Origin: Peptoclostridium acidaminophilum DSM 3953
GTDB lineage: Bacteria > Bacillota > Clostridia > Peptostreptococcales > Peptostreptococcaceae
Direction: 5' to 3'
NCBI RefSeq assembly: GCF_000597865.1
Contig: NZ_CP007452.1
Span: forward strand, 124,001-188,000
DNA length: 64,000 nt
Shown here: positions 3,838-45,448 of the stretch, in pieces
Numbering within the stretch: the stretch's first letter is position 1
Layout: every line of letters begins with the position of its first letter
Translations under genes and position numbers: made by a program
The notes under the pieces: generated by a model
Database searches by the model: none
What the model was told of the DNA's origin: nothing
Seen by the model: the letters and a program-made list of their open reading frames with translations, nothing else

Positions 3838-3880
3838 TCATTTGTTAAACAGTTAAATATTTTCAAATATATATTCAAAT

Positions 3881-3930
3881 GCCGCAGACAGCAGGTGCAT
3901 ACGCTTAAACATGCCTGCCGAGGAAGATAG
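3881..3930 (+). ncRNA. L10 leader (autoregulatory mRNA element)
   Basis: The segment contains the pattern GCAGACAGCAGGTGCATA...GCTTAA...ATGCCTGCCGAGG, with CAGG(T)/(C)CTG arms and an internal loop. This matches the L10 leader known from Firmicutes rplJ-rplL operons, to which the L10(L7/L12) complex binds. It is followed at once by a terminator hairpin, which suggests attenuation by ligand binding. Confidence 0.85.
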
Positions 3931-3955
3931 TTTTGATACTAGATATTGAAATTAT

Positions 3956-3991
3956 AGCCCTTGTATGTCTGTGTGCATGCAAGGGCTTTTA
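3956..3991 (+). terminator. Terminator hairpin of the L10 leader
   Basis: AGCCCTTGTATG pairs with CATGCAAGGGCT around TCTGTGTG and is followed by TTTATAATT. It lies between the L10 leader and rplJ and is probably conditional. Confidence 0.8.
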
Positions 3992-4000
3992 TAATTAAAA

Positions 4001-4020
4001 CGGCAAAGCTTGCTTTGCCG
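4001..4020 (+). other. Short hairpin just before rplJ ribosome binding site
   Basis: CGGCAAAGC and GCTTTGCCG are separated by two bases. The stem lies 9 nt before the AAAGGAGGTGG site of rplJ and could protect or modulate translation start. Its function is unknown. Confidence 0.6.
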
Positions 4021-37409: not shown

Positions 37410-37802
37410 ATGGCAAGCGTACAATTTTACGGAACTGGAAGAAGAAAGCATGCAGTTGCTAGGGTTAGACTTATTCCAGGCGAAGGAAAAATAACAATAA
37501 ATAAAAGAGATTTGGATGAGTATTTCGATTATGAAACGCTTAAGACTGAAGTTAAGCAGCCTCTAGTAATAACTGAAACGGAAGGAAAATATGACATATT
37601 CGTTACAGTAGAAGGCGGCGGATTTACAGGACAGGCAGGTGCTGTAAGACACGGACTGTCTAGAGCTCTTTTAAAGGCAGATGCTGAGCTTAGACCAGTA
37701 CTTAAGGAGGCTGGATTCCTAACTAGGGATGCTAGAATGAAGGAAAGAAAGAAATACGGACTCAAAGCAGCAAGAAGAGCTCCGCAGTTCTCAAAGAGAT
37801 AA
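37410..37802 (+). CDS. rpsI: 30S ribosomal protein S9
   Basis: S9 reaches the P-site tRNA anticodon arm with its C-terminal tail. The 130 residues start [18 protein letters not shown] and end with [16 protein letters not shown], the tRNA-contacting Ser-Lys-Arg end. A terminator follows, then the DnaA-box region. Confidence 0.97.
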
Positions 37803-37815
37803 TATGCTCTATATG

Positions 37816-37844
37816 GACCCCAATAGTATTGGGGTCTTTTTTAT
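37816..37844 (+). terminator. Terminator after rpsI
   Basis: GACCCCAA pairs with TTGGGGTC (outermost stem, could extend further) and is followed by TTTTTTATT. Confidence 0.93.
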
Positions 37845-37919
37845 TGCCTTTGTTTCCAAATAGAGGTACTATAATAGAGATGTGTCATGTAGATATATTG
37901 ATAAAATCCCACAAAAGAC

Positions 37920-38010
37920 TGTGGATAATGTGGATAACATCCATAGAGATAAGCATTTGGAATATGTCTAAGTGCCAGTGCCTCCGAACTTATCCACATT
38001 ATTTTCCACA
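37920..38010. promoter_or_regulatory. DnaA-box cluster upstream of the thymidylate-kinase-like gene
   Basis: Three perfect DnaA boxes (TTATCCACA) occur: two adjacent on the minus strand (TGTGGATAA at 37920-37928 and 37929-37937) and one on the plus strand (37990-37998). A fourth, TTTTCCACA (38002-38010), matches the looser consensus. The inner boxes lie in an 11 bp inverted repeat AATGTGGATAA/TTATCCACATT. A TATAAT at 37870-37875 lies upstream and an AT-rich stretch follows to about 38060. DnaA binding is inferred; the role may be control of the downstream genes or titration of DnaA. Confidence 0.8.
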
Positions 38011-38074
38011 CAGGACAGATTTTTCAAGATATGAATATATTCTAAATGTATTTTATGATTTGATGGAGGGAAAA

Positions 38075-38761
38075 ATGAAGGGAAAACTCTTTGTGATAGA
38101 AAGCGGAACGGATTCTAGCGGGAAGGCCACGCAGACGCTTAGGCTCTTTGAAAGGCTCCTGGCGGAAGGCTTCAACGTAAGGAAGGTAGAATACCCAGAC
38201 TACGAGAGCGACTCGTCAGCGCTTATCAAGATGTATCTTAAAGGGGAGTTCGGCGATAGGCCCGAGGATGTCAACTGCTATGCGGCGTCGGCATTTTATG
38301 CTGTGGATAGATACGCTTCATTCCAGAAAAACTGGAGGGAGTTCTATGAGGCCGGTGGGATAGTCATAGCCGACAGGTACACCACGTCGAACATGGTTCA
38401 CCAGGCTTCAAAGATAGAGGATGAGGCCGAAAAGGAAGAGTATCTTGAGTGGCTTGTGGATTTTGAGTTTGAAAAATTCAGGCTGCCTGAGCCTGACGAG
38501 GTGATTTTTCTTGATATGCCCCCGAGCGTGAGCATCGAGCTCATGAGGGAGAGAAATAACAAGTTCACGGGCGAGTCTGAAAAGGACATCCATGAAAAAA
38601 GCTGTGACTATCTTGTAAAGACATATGAAAATGCACGCCAAATAGCAAGCAAATACGGCTGGAAGTCTGTAGACTGCGTCAGGGAAGGTAATCTAAGGAC
38701 CATAGATGAAATACACGATGAAATATACAGCTGCATAATAGAAGCTATACATAAGGCTTAG
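38075..38761 (+). CDS. Thymidylate kinase-like deoxynucleotide kinase
   Basis: The 228-residue protein resembles the thymidylate kinase family (dTMP to dTDP). The P-loop ESGTDSSGKATQT (residues 9-21) has Ala where Thr or Ser normally binds Mg-ATP after the Lys. The DRY-type motif is ADRYTTSNMVHQ, and the LID region lies near RERNNKFTGESEKDIHE. ATG 38075 follows GGAGGG closely; reading frame extends far upstream through the DnaA boxes, but without a binding site. It occupies the B. subtilis tmk position before holB. The substrate is inferred. Confidence 0.82.
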   Translation: MKGKLFVIESGTDSSGKATQTLRLFERLLAEGFNVRKVEYPDYESDSSALIKMYLKGEFGDRPEDVNCYAASAFYAVDRYASFQKNWREFYEAGGIVIADRYTTSNMVHQASKIEDEAEKEEYLEWLVDFEFEKFRLPEPDEVIFLDMPPSVSIELMRERNNKFTGESEKDIHEKSCDYLVKTYENARQIASKYGWKSVDCVREGNLRTIDEIHDEIYSCIIEAIHKA

Positions 38762-38807: not shown

Positions 38808-38849
38808 AGAGAGTAAAATGCATGCAATTTGTTGGAGGAAACAGTTCAA

Positions 38850-39791
38850 ATGAGCTTTGATACTATTTTGGGTCAGGAAACTGCCAAGAGGTTTATAATA
38901 AATTCGGTTGAAAAAGGCAGGATTAGCCATGCATATCTATTTGAAGGCCCATCGGGGATAGGAAAGAAGACATTTGCCCTGGAGTACGCCAGGCTGCTGC
39001 TCGAAGGCAAGGAGCCTGGCAATAGCCCGGACTTTTGCATGCTAGAGCCTGACGGGGCGTCCTTCAAGATAGCTCAGATAAGGAGCCTGTGCCAGGACAT
39101 ACTTATAAGGCCGTATGGGAAAAGAAAGGTGTATTTGCTTGATGAGGCAGACAAGATGACAATTCAGGCGCAAAACAGCCTTTTGAAGTCTCTTGAAGAG
39201 CCTCCTGAATACGCAGTTATAATATTGCTGTGCAAAAACTCGTCGGTGCTGCTGCCTACAGTGGCTTCGCGATGCGAACTTGTGAGATTTTTTCCTCTCT
39301 CACAAAAGCAGGTGCAGGGATATCTGGTTGAATCCAAGCAGCTCTCCTGCGAGAGAGCTCATGCAATAGCGGCGTTTTCAAACGGGATTCTTTCAAGGGC
39401 TCTCAACCTCATAGAGTCACAGGAATTTTCGGATTTCAGGGAAAAGACAGAACGGCTCATAGAAACATTACTGGCAGGGAATACGGTCAATATATTTTCG
39501 CTCTCATCATTTTTTGAAAGCAACAAAGACGGTGCAGACGAGATACTAGACATAATAGCCACATATTTCAGAGATATGGCACTTATAAAGATGGATTGCG
39601 ACAAAGATTTCATAATAAATCTCGACAGACGAGATTTTATCGACAGCGTGGGGGACAAATTTTCAACAGGTCAGATACTTCGAATAATAGAAGAATTGGA
39701 CAACTGTAAAAAGAGGCTTAGGAGTAACTGCAACCTTGCCATTAGTGTCCAGGCCATGCTTTTAAATATACAAGAGGTGATAAGATGGTAA
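38850..39791 (+). CDS. holB: DNA polymerase III subunit delta'
   Basis: A clamp-loader subunit that works with DnaX and HolA to load the sliding clamp. ATG 38850 has TTGGAGGAA about 10 nt upstream. The 313 residues begin SFDTILGQETAKRFI; the P-loop-like GPSGIGKKT is at 33-41, followed by YLLDEADKMTIQAQNSLLKSLEEPP and the sensor SRC motif. The zinc module between them, normally with four cysteines, is shortened to about ten residues and retains one Cys at most. Its stop overlaps the ricT start. Confidence 0.93.
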   Translation: MSFDTILGQETAKRFIINSVEKGRISHAYLFEGPSGIGKKTFALEYARLLLEGKEPGNSPDFCMLEPDGASFKIAQIRSLCQDILIRPYGKRKVYLLDEADKMTIQAQNSLLKSLEEPPEYAVIILLCKNSSVLLPTVASRCELVRFFPLSQKQVQGYLVESKQLSCERAHAIAAFSNGILSRALNLIESQEFSDFREKTERLIETLLAGNTVNIFSLSSFFESNKDGADEILDIIATYFRDMALIKMDCDKDFIINLDRRDFIDSVGDKFSTGQILRIIEELDNCKKRLRSNCNLAISVQAMLLNIQEVIRW

Positions 39792-40669
39792 AAGTCGTTG
39801 GAATAAGATTCAAAAAAGCCGGCAAAATATATTATTTTGACCCTAATGAATTCGAGCCGCTTGAGGGCCAGCATGTTATAGTTGAGACTGTCAGGGGCCT
39901 TGAGTTTGGTAAAATAGTCGTGGGTGTCAAGGAGGTTGAGGATTCTGAAATAATATCTCCTCTCAAACCAATAATAAGGATAGCCACAGACGAAGACATA
40001 TATGCAAATCAAAAGAACAAGGAAGATGCCATGCTGGCATTCCAGGTTTGCAACGATAAGGTAAAAAGCCATAAGCTTGACATGTACCTTATAGACTCTG
40101 AATATACATTTGACAGAAACAAGCTCATATTCTATTTCACGGCTGAAGGCAGGGTGGATTTTAGAGAACTCGTTAAAGATCTTGCCGCTGTATTCAAAAC
40201 CAGAATAGAGCTAAGGCAGATTGGCGTAAGGGACGAGGCAAAATCATTGGGAGGCCTTGGCTGCTGCGGAAGGTCGCTTTGCTGTGCGACATGGCTTGGC
40301 GATTTTCAGCCGGTATCCATCAAGATGGCCAAGGATCAGAGTCTTTCACTCAACCCAACCAAGATATCGGGAGTCTGCGGCAGGCTGTTTTGCTGCCTCA
40401 ACTACGAGCATGCGACATATGAGGAAACACTCGGTAAAATTCCTCCTGTAAATTCAATAGTAATGACTCCTTTTGGAAAGGGAGTCGTATCAGCTGTGGA
40501 TATACTGGGAGAAAGGCTCAATGTATTTCTGGACGAAGCAAAGGAGCTTAGGAAATTCGAGCTTCATGAAATAAAGCTGATAGAAGCGCCTAAAAAGAGC
40601 AAGGGCAAGCAGGATTCAATTGATGCGGAGCTTGCAAAAGAGCTGAAGCAGCTTGAGAGCGATAAATAA
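39785..40669 (+). CDS. ricT: RicT (PSP1/YaaT family) regulator
   Basis: In B. subtilis RicT works with RicA and RicF in an iron-sulfur complex that stimulates RNase Y and affects sporulation and competence. The 294 residues carry the PSP1 domain with a cysteine cluster (GGLGCCGRSLCCATW and GVCGRLFCCLNYEH). It overlaps holB by 7 nt (ATGGTAA), an old pairing in Firmicutes. Membership is clear; the RNase Y link here is inferred from the family. Confidence 0.92.
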   Translation: MVKVVGIRFKKAGKIYYFDPNEFEPLEGQHVIVETVRGLEFGKIVVGVKEVEDSEIISPLKPIIRIATDEDIYANQKNKEDAMLAFQVCNDKVKSHKLDMYLIDSEYTFDRNKLIFYFTAEGRVDFRELVKDLAAVFKTRIELRQIGVRDEAKSLGGLGCCGRSLCCATWLGDFQPVSIKMAKDQSLSLNPTKISGVCGRLFCCLNYEHATYEETLGKIPPVNSIVMTPFGKGVVSAVDILGERLNVFLDEAKELRKFELHEIKLIEAPKKSKGKQDSIDAELAKELKQLESDK

Positions 40670-40700: not shown

Positions 40701-40792
40701 AATTGAATTTGAATATTGTCTGGATTAAAATTTTATGGAGGCGTGTATGGCCATTTAAAGGCTGGATATGCCATCAATATTATGGAGTAGAT

Positions 40793-41551
40793 ATGGACAT
40801 GGATATAGAGATTAAGGATAACGAGAGAATAGACGACCTGCAGGTAAACGGCCTGCGGATAATACAGGATACCGGCGGATTTTGCTTTGGCGTTGATGCC
40901 GTGCTGCTTGCCAATTTTACAAAGGCAAAAGCAGGCGAGAGAGTTGTTGACCTTGGAACGGGCACAGGCATAATACCGATACTAATAGCGGGAAAAAGCA
41001 GTGCCGCGAGCGTTTTGGGCGTGGAGATTCAAGCGGAGGTAGCAGACATGGCAAGGCGCTCTGTGGAGCTAAACGGCCTTGAGGAGCGAGTTGAAATAAT
41101 AAATATGGATATTAAGGACATACCAACGCGCCTGCAGCTCAATACGTTCCATGTGGTAACATCGAACCCCCCGTATATGCATCCTGCCGGTGTGAAGAAT
41201 CCGAATGATAAGAAGGCCATATCGAGGCATGAGATAATGTGCTCGCTCGAGGATGTCATCTGCATGGCGTCAAGGCTCTTAATGAGCGGAGGCAAGTTTT
41301 TTATGGTTCACAGGCCTACAAGGCTGGCGGATATAATATGCCTTGCCAGAAGCTATAAGCTGGAACCAAAGCAGATAAGGTTTGTGCATCCGAGTGCCGG
41401 CAAGAGTCCCAACATGATGCTGATTCAATTTACAAAGGGAGGCAAGCCGGAGCTAAAGATACTCGAGCCTCTTTATATTTATGAAGCCTCAGGCGAATAT
41501 ACCCGCCAGATAAGGGACATATATTCAAGTGAGAGCATAGGGGTGATATAG
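40793..41551 (+). CDS. TrmN6-like N6-adenine methyltransferase
   Basis: A SAM-dependent methyltransferase of the TrmN6/YabB family, predicted to modify A37 of tRNA-Val or a similar RNA. The SAM motif DLGTGTGIIPILIA and the N6-amino-methylase motif SNPPYM are both visible. About 252 residues. ATG 40793 follows TATGGAGTA; an ATG two codons later is the alternative. rsmI begins 2 nt after the stop codon. Confidence 0.88.
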   Translation: MDMDIEIKDNERIDDLQVNGLRIIQDTGGFCFGVDAVLLANFTKAKAGERVVDLGTGTGIIPILIAGKSSAASVLGVEIQAEVADMARRSVELNGLEERVEIINMDIKDIPTRLQLNTFHVVTSNPPYMHPAGVKNPNDKKAISRHEIMCSLEDVICMASRLLMSGGKFFMVHRPTRLADIICLARSYKLEPKQIRFVHPSAGKSPNMMLIQFTKGGKPELKILEPLYIYEASGEYTRQIRDIYSSESIGVI

Positions 41552-41553
41552 AT

Positions 41554-42393
41554 ATGAACGGCAAACTTTATATATGCGCAACACCAATTGGAAATCTGGA
41601 GGACATAACCCTGAGAACATTGAATGTACTCAAGGAGGTCGACATAATAGCAGCAGAGGATACAAGAAGGACAATAAGGCTGCTTAATCACTATGGCATA
41701 TCGAAGCCACTTATGAGCTATCACGAGCACAACAAGTTCTCTAAGGGAAGCGAAATGATTGCAAAGCTACTTGAAGGCCAGAATATCGCGCTTGTATCGG
41801 ATGCGGGTATGCCCGGGATATCTGATCCGGGAGAAGACGCTGTGAGGCTTGCAATAGAAAATGGAATAGAAGTCGAGGTGCTTCCCGGTGCCAGTGCGTT
41901 TGTGACCGCGCTTGTAGGCTCAGGACTTCCAACAGGAAGGTTTCTTTTCTTTGGATTTTTGAGCAGGGACAAAAAGGAAAGAAGAGCGCAGCTAGAAGAG
42001 CTCCGATATGAAAAAGCCACAGTGATATTATACGAGGCTCCTCACAGGCTTTTGCACACGCTTTCCGACATGCTTGAAGGCTTGGGCAACAGAAGGGTAT
42101 GCATATCAAGGGAGCTAACTAAGTTGCATGAAGAAAATATCAGAACCAGCCTGCAGGATGCAATCGGGCATTTTTCGAAAAATCAGCCGCGGGGTGAATT
42201 TGTACTCATAGTGGAGGGGTCTAAAGAGGAAAAAAAGATTGAAGATGACATTACTGAAGGCATGGGCCACAGGGAGTATGTAGAGTATCTAATGGATGCA
42301 CAGGGTATGGACAAAAAAGAAGCGATAAAAACTGTCGCAAAAAAAAGAGGAATTGCAAAAAATGATGTATATAAGGAAGTGCACGATATATAG
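41554..42393 (+). CDS. rsmI: 16S rRNA (cytidine1402-2'-O)-methyltransferase
   Basis: RsmI methylates the ribose of C1402 at the P-site of 16S rRNA. The 279 residues have the tetrapyrrole-methylase fold: GKLYICATPIGNLEDITLRTLNVLKEVDIIAAEDTRRT at the N-terminus, SDAGMPGISDPGE and PGASAFVTALVGSGLPTGRFLFFGFL. It is closely linked to the methyltransferase upstream. Confidence 0.96.
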   Translation: MNGKLYICATPIGNLEDITLRTLNVLKEVDIIAAEDTRRTIRLLNHYGISKPLMSYHEHNKFSKGSEMIAKLLEGQNIALVSDAGMPGISDPGEDAVRLAIENGIEVEVLPGASAFVTALVGSGLPTGRFLFFGFLSRDKKERRAQLEELRYEKATVILYEAPHRLLHTLSDMLEGLGNRRVCISRELTKLHEENIRTSLQDAIGHFSKNQPRGEFVLIVEGSKEEKKIEDDITEGMGHREYVEYLMDAQGMDKKEAIKTVAKKRGIAKNDVYKEVHDI

Positions 42394-45194: not shown

Positions 45195-45448
45195 GCAATA
45201 AAACAAGAAAAGGCAGTGAAGGGAAGAGTAGGCAGGCAAGTCCTTTATAAGAGAGCCGGATAAGGTGAAAGCCGGCAAGGAACTATATGCTGAATATGGC
45301 CCCGGAGCCCTCCGCCCGAGATGATTCAGGGCGGAACGCATAAGGCACGTTATAGCCTGATTGAGGCTTTTGGGCAATGCCCAAACAGCAAATAGGGTGG
45401 TACCGCGGAGAATATTCGCCCCTGGACATTGTTCAGGGGCGTTTTTTA
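45195..45448 (+). promoter_or_regulatory. T-box riboswitch of metG
   Basis: The 250 nt leader shows the T-box signature AGGGTGGTACCGCG (45394-45407), the stem I motif GGGAAGAGTAGG and distal stem CCGG...GCCGG. It ends in a terminator CGCCCCTG/CAGGGGCG followed by TTTTTT (45417-45447). An ATG triplet at 45287-45289, or the one at 45295-45297, could be the Met specifier. Uncharged tRNA would favour the antiterminator and switch on metG. Confidence 0.92.

Follow-up and report, generated by a model that had tools for sequence, protein, structure and literature searches.

Why does a compact group of DnaA boxes stand in front of a thymidylate-kinase-like gene, well away from dnaA? The group was noticed in a window of 64,000 nucleotides from Peptoclostridium acidaminophilum DSM 3953, which is the whole stretch of DNA analysed here (C1:124001-188000). 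The genome has 3.06 Mb in two contigs, C1 (2.25 Mb) and C2 (0.81 Mb). The initial annotation, which was made from the letters of the window, had described two adjacent perfect boxes, one further perfect box and one near-perfect box within 91 bp. All four were found again, and they lie between the rpsI gene and the tmk-like gene:

37920..37928, minus strand: DnaA box 1, perfect (box scan)
37929..37937, minus strand: DnaA box 2, perfect, abutting box 1 (box scan)
37938..37989, no strand assigned: spacer of 52 bp, its length kept but its sequence poorly conserved (30/52 positions the same in the congener)
37990..37998, plus strand: DnaA box 3, perfect, in inverted orientation at an offset of 61 bp to box 2 (box scan, offset recounted)
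38002..38010, plus strand: DnaA box 4, TTTTCCACA, one mismatch (box scan)

The inverted repeat around the inner boxes had been put at 11 bp; it is present and is in fact a perfect repeat of 13 bp (37925-37937 and 37990-38002). The AT-rich stretch mentioned in the same description is real but modest, as 37846-38074 is 67% AT in a window of 57% AT.

Is such a cluster expected by chance? Perfect boxes occur 29 times in the genome and the reversed pattern occurs 27 times, that is, there is no enrichment, and thus single boxes mean little. The looser motif TTWTNCACA is mildly enriched (323 versus 239 for its reverse). The window has 21 boxes with at most one mismatch, while 14.6 are expected and 6 of 100 shuffles reach 21. 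Since this total is only mildly above chance, the signal lies in the clustering. At the observed density, a genome would be expected to have about 1e-5 groups of three perfect boxes in 91 bp. None of 200 simulated windows had four boxes (at most one mismatch) in 100 bp; the maximum was three boxes and was reached once. A genome-wide search for clusters of at least three perfect boxes, proposed earlier as a check, was made with all 29 perfect boxes and the tandem pairs, and the site before tmk alone has three of them within 100 bp. Thus, although lone box-like 9-mers are common, a functionless accident is very improbable, given this low expectation and the retention of the boxes in place in two relatives, as described below. 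The DnaA sequence of this species has a GGRDHTTV stretch, which I take to be a stretch of the DnaA DNA-binding domain. It is very likely that DnaA binds the cluster.

It had also been suggested that the cluster could be part of a chromosomal origin, although no dnaA was in view. In clostridia, origins are usually linked to dnaA. The dnaA match lies at C1:147-1436 and the cluster at C1:161920-162010, so that the two are about 160 kb apart and the cluster is outside oriC. Boxes flank dnaA on both sides. The upstream ones are at the end of C1, and on the downstream side GCGCC and TAC-type triplets resembling a DnaA-trio come after a TTTTCCACA box. A run of three TA-type triplets is present after dnaA; the two strands of 37846-38074 have none. 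The several perfect boxes of the cluster and its AT-rich stretch would suit an origin, but the box arrays and the triplets stand at dnaA and the triplet run is missing from the cluster. The origin reading was rejected as extremely unlikely. The dnaA region of this species resembles the bipartite origin of Clostridioides difficile with a trio downstream of dnaA, as described in the accessible part of PMC7561715. Contig C2 carries, in non-coding DNA (L004:1740-1777), a pair of perfect boxes in inverted orientation, 29 bp apart. This pair lies about 5 kb from a ParA-like helix-turn-helix gene and is perhaps the origin of the 0.81-Mb replicon. Seven equal-scoring frames of 257 amino acids in the genome also match the DnaA-family model (e.g., C1:436081-436383 and C2:140315-140617); they probably represent the ATPase gene of an insertion element present in several copies.

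The genes around the cluster are as follows:

37410..37802, plus strand: rpsI (ribosomal protein S9), the upstream neighbour (NCBIfam NF001099, above cut-off)
37815..37845, plus strand: terminator-like hairpin of rpsI with a T run (terminator scan: 10 pairs, 5 of them G-C)
37870..37875, plus strand: TATAAT, a putative -10 element of a tmk promoter (read from the sequence; no good -35 element)
38075..38761, plus strand: tmk-like gene (the only match to PF02223, thymidylate kinase, in the genome; below the NCBIfam dTMP kinase cut-offs)
38829..39791, plus strand: holB-like gene, DNA polymerase III delta prime (PF13177 and PF09115; NCBIfam delta prime models below cut-offs)
39785..40669, plus strand: ricT (yaaT) gene (NF041131, above cut-off)
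40703..41551, plus strand: methyltransferase gene (profile match)
41554..42393, plus strand: rsmI, a 16S rRNA methyltransferase gene (profile match)

The downstream genes are thus indeed thymidylate-kinase-like and holB-like. As judged by strand and spacing, the methyltransferase and rsmI genes (40703..42393) are likely to form the end of a tmk-holB operon. The gap between ricT and the methyltransferase gene is only 34 bp; yabA of B. subtilis is presumably located between these two genes. Since the rpsI hairpin carries a T run, tmk should need its own promoter downstream of it. About 230 bp upstream of position 38075 are available for that promoter, and the cluster occupies 91 of them. The TATAAT sequence is identical in the congener (L007), and a TATAAT sequence is found nearby in P. 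litorale (L033). A promoter scan of the region upstream of tmk gave two sites against a shuffle mean of 1.7, the TATAAT at 37870-37875 not being among them, and placed no promoter in the interval with the boxes, from the rpsI terminator to tmk. Elsewhere in the window, a T-box leader (45207-45426) and a ribosomal protein L10 leader (3864-4001) are of the ordinary kind.

Is the cluster conserved? Two species besides P. acidaminophilum were compared, a congeneric Peptoclostridium sp. (G001, locus L007) and P. litorale DSM 5388 (G019, locus L033). In the congener, 35/36 box positions are unchanged, against 119/179 other intergenic positions (Fisher P 3e-5). The values for P. litorale are 27/36 and 87/179 (P 0.003). 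The left pair of P. litorale is the same at 17 of 18 positions. Its right pair has diverged, with 10 of 18 aligned positions in agreement, but can still be read as ATATCCACA and TTATCAACA. The variant boxes of both relatives, namely TTGTCCACA, TTATTCACA, ATATCCACA and TTATCAACA, are also present in the oriC stretches of P. acidaminophilum itself. Hairpins similar to the rpsI terminator-like one align at the same place in both relatives. Close relatives with the genes in place but without the boxes had been named as a point against the cluster; all three lineages with rpsI-tmk adjacency, two of them other species, retain four boxes, whose order and orientation are unchanged.

At the other loci that were read, the two genes go without the cluster. 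A tmk match was found in 36 of 61 genomes, and of 30 loci read, three have the cluster, all after rpsI, while 27 do not. With 27 tmk loci of the family and the order lacking the cluster, DnaA control of tmk is not general. The rpsI gene was found in 40 of 41 genomes, and the cluster is present at three of 30 loci read, in the same lineages, where rpsI adjoins tmk. In a further set of 27 loci taken from genome contigs, two have the cluster, both from assemblies among the three, and 25 have no or one box. Two simpler rules were rejected on these counts. A cluster bound to tmk wherever the gene is placed is contradicted by 27/30 tmk loci with 0-2 boxes in 400 bp, and one bound to rpsI by 27/30 rpsI loci with 0-3 boxes in 500 bp; the three boxes of one rpsI locus (L075) are scattered. 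In the search of relatives, 25 of 61 genomes gave no tmk match at E 1e-20.

The same alignments bear on the possibility that the inverted repeat is transcribed and folds as an RNA hairpin, in a leader or a small RNA, with no protein site involved. The repeat of 13 bp, a single-strand folding better than that of shuffled sequences (z -3.38) and a weak minus-strand site resembling a terminator (37925-37908) would fit such an RNA. However, an Rfam search gave no match at the cluster. The P. litorale arms, TGTGAATAA and ATATCCACA, mismatch at two of nine positions without compensation, and both are still box-like. The arms of a related layout upstream of hpf, described below, are box-like too, and their complementarity is incomplete. 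The RNA element is thus very unlikely and was rejected as the main reading.

As far as the sequence tells, the site before tmk is a real, conserved DnaA-box cluster of the B. subtilis type, at a gene outside the B. subtilis regions of Table 1 in PMC4447404, and not an origin. The extra-origin clusters of B. subtilis (sda-yqeG, ywlC, ywcI-vpr, gcp-ydiF, trmE and yydA) likewise have several boxes, are intergenic and lie away from oriC. According to Table 1 in the accessible portion of PMC4447404, the strongest DnaA-binding regions of B. subtilis have 4 to 12 sites per 300 bp; the present cluster, with four boxes at one mismatch, is at the low end. It also differs in its genes, tmk-holB, since the name tmk is absent from the accessible text of PMC4447404, including the regions of Table 1. 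A further feature of the tmk cluster is its fixed layout, in which an abutting pair faces inverted boxes; the box maps of B. subtilis lie outside this comparison. A precedent for a DNA-precursor gene is nrdAB of E. coli, which has three boxes in its promoter region and is regulated by DnaA, according to the part of PMC8203912 at hand. The target here would be a dTMP kinase and a clamp loader in place of a ribonucleotide reductase. The non-coding box sites datA, DARS1 and DARS2 of E. coli are likewise outside oriC and bear on DnaA availability, as stated in the excerpted text of PMC13220808, where B. subtilis is said to lack IHF, datA, DARS1 and DARS2; datA requires IHF, according to the accessible sections of PMC5295017. 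A search of a limited literature collection returned nothing on DnaA together with sda, ywlC and yclN, nor on DnaA boxes with holB and tmk, with hibernation promoting factor, or in a C. difficile regulon, although this does not prove their absence from print.

What might the cluster do? I consider it somewhat probable that this extra-origin DnaA-box cluster doubles as the operator region of tmk-holB-ricT and holds DnaA near oriC. DnaA probably controls the tmk-holB genes or is held in reserve there. A DnaA link between replication start and these genes, or titration, had been proposed in the initial annotation together with the origin alternative; the former fits a conserved non-origin cluster, while the latter has fallen. 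In the proposed mechanism, DnaA bound cooperatively at the abutting boxes 1 and 2 would contact DnaA at boxes 3 and 4, which are inverted and lie about six helical turns off. The resulting bent or looped complex would sit between the rpsI terminator and tmk; a bend or loop is suggested because the spacing is kept while the spacer sequence is free to change. The complex may tune tmk-holB transcription according to the level or the nucleotide state of DnaA, most likely by repression. In B. subtilis, some extra-origin clusters act on transcription, and DnaA is an activator of sda and apparently a repressor of several genes (PMC4447404, in its accessible part). In addition, the site, about 160 kb from oriC, would be copied early and might take up DnaA soon after initiation. 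The cluster is a conserved candidate target in clostridia, and, if the proposal is true, it would link replication start to thymidylate supply and clamp loading.

Is this layout found at other genes? The abutting pair TGTGGAYAATGTGRATAA was found in 41 of 198 genomes of the order, and the reversed control gave none. The 30 pair loci fetched from these 41 genomes have 3 to 8 boxes (at most one mismatch) per 350 bp, with the pair counted. A search for the pair together with an inverted box, in which the spacing was left free from 38 to 68 (offsets of 46-76 allowed), then covered 71 genomes of the family. This layout was found in 29 of the 71 genomes, with 30 matches, against 0 for the reversed control. 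The geometry of the abutting pair and the inverted box is unusually fixed: the offsets from the inner box to the inverted box are 51-52 (3 matches), 60-62 (25 matches) and 71-72 (2 matches), so that all 30 fall into groups about one helical turn apart. Three of the matches lie before tmk, and the others have the following neighbours:

L147-L158, L162-L167 and L171-L175: upstream of hpf, 23 matches
L160 and L176: between dnaB and purA, 2 matches
L159: beside dnaA, 1 match
L161: tentatively, near a methyltransferase gene, 1 match

The 23 hpf matches were counted as one homologous locus, with two length variants, L149 and L175, which are longer and shorter, respectively, by about 10 bp. In most of the matches, another conserved sequence, TGTTAATAA, follows the pair at 12 bp. 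No likeness between the tmk and hpf spacers was seen by eye. The abutting pair is on the gene-near side at hpf and on the farther side at tmk, and the distances to the gene differ. These differences in orientation and distance favour a role of the layout that is independent of any single promoter arrangement. A search of the class with a pattern stricter than that used for the family gave matches in 6 of 391 genomes. The five class-level matches outside the family have offsets of 72, 68, 69, 49 and 74, of which the first alone fits the 10-bp spacing. For the phasing, P is 0.029 on five loci taken as independent, 0.0013 with the two hpf length variants and 0.053 with the five class-level matches added; as the independent loci were chosen after the offsets were known, helical phasing of the layout is suggestive. 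The near-fixed spacing in the family predicts a DnaA loop.

The recurrence of the layout also raises another reading, in which the cluster sequesters or converts DnaA, acts on replication timing, like the B. subtilis clusters jointly or like datA and the DARS sites, and stands before tmk incidentally. The same layout at unrelated genes of the family, in differing orientation to the gene, and the closeness of the cluster to oriC speak for it. In B. subtilis, the removal of six clusters leads to early initiation, and the return of one of them, at various locations, relieves this partly, as described in the accessible part of PMC5295017. On the other hand, that account, so far as it is accessible, was also counted against a timing element, and because of it the titration part of the preferred explanation is weakened as well. 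Moreover, three lineages have kept the cluster between the terminator and tmk, and no tmk or rpsI locus that was read has it in any other setting. A pure timing element is thus rather unlikely, though it deserves more weight than the origin, RNA and chance readings.

Beyond the preferred reading, an operator of tmk-holB-ricT that also holds DnaA, the family layout invites a wider and more tentative proposal. It is possible, though I would not count on it, that abutting boxes facing an inverted box on one helix face form a portable DnaA module, which would act as a looping switch at hpf, tmk-holB, dnaB-purA and dnaA. The state of DnaA would then set ribosome hibernation in many genera and the supply of dTTP and clamp loader in Peptoclostridium. 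The hpf version, if true, would tie DnaA to ribosome hibernation. In Peptoclostridium, no box was found in the 1 kb upstream of the hpf domain in P. acidaminophilum, G001 and G019 (L141, L139 and L136, respectively). A 30-bp cluster, identical in P. acidaminophilum (G000:C1:307470-307499, or L002:4471-4500) and in the congener (G001:C7:17780-17809), lies after fliS and flgN, about 9.4 kb before hpf. It consists of an abutting pair, in which one of the boxes is altered, and of a third box at a distance of 12 bp; an inverted box was sought at the expected place and was not found. In Peptoclostridium, the full module is thus seen at tmk; at hpf it was not found. The genes after the 30-bp cluster are putatively V-type ATPase-like by eye.

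Abutting-pair clusters were observed at several other places. Three genomes have one between dnaB, which encodes the replicative helicase, and purA (L115, L160 and L176). In other families of the order, such clusters lie just downstream of tsaD (L098, L109, and L127 together with L097), and that of L098 lies opposite an ABC-type gene. From a test of the longest frame of each locus, which was not always tsaD, L127 alone was used. L099, L100 and L111 look like further tsaD-side loci by gene size. If gcp is tsaD, as I presume, the tsaD-side clusters (L098, L109, and L127 with L097) occupy the same kind of place as the gcp-ydiF region of B. subtilis. Another cluster lies beside recU (L095), and L096 is similar by gene size. 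In P. acidaminophilum itself, a small cluster (G000:C1:2210889-2210929, or L006:3890-3930) is flanked on one side by a histidine kinase gene, at its 3′ end, and on the other by a frame of 161 amino acids without a Pfam match, and this small cluster is also present in the congener (G001, C25:91942).
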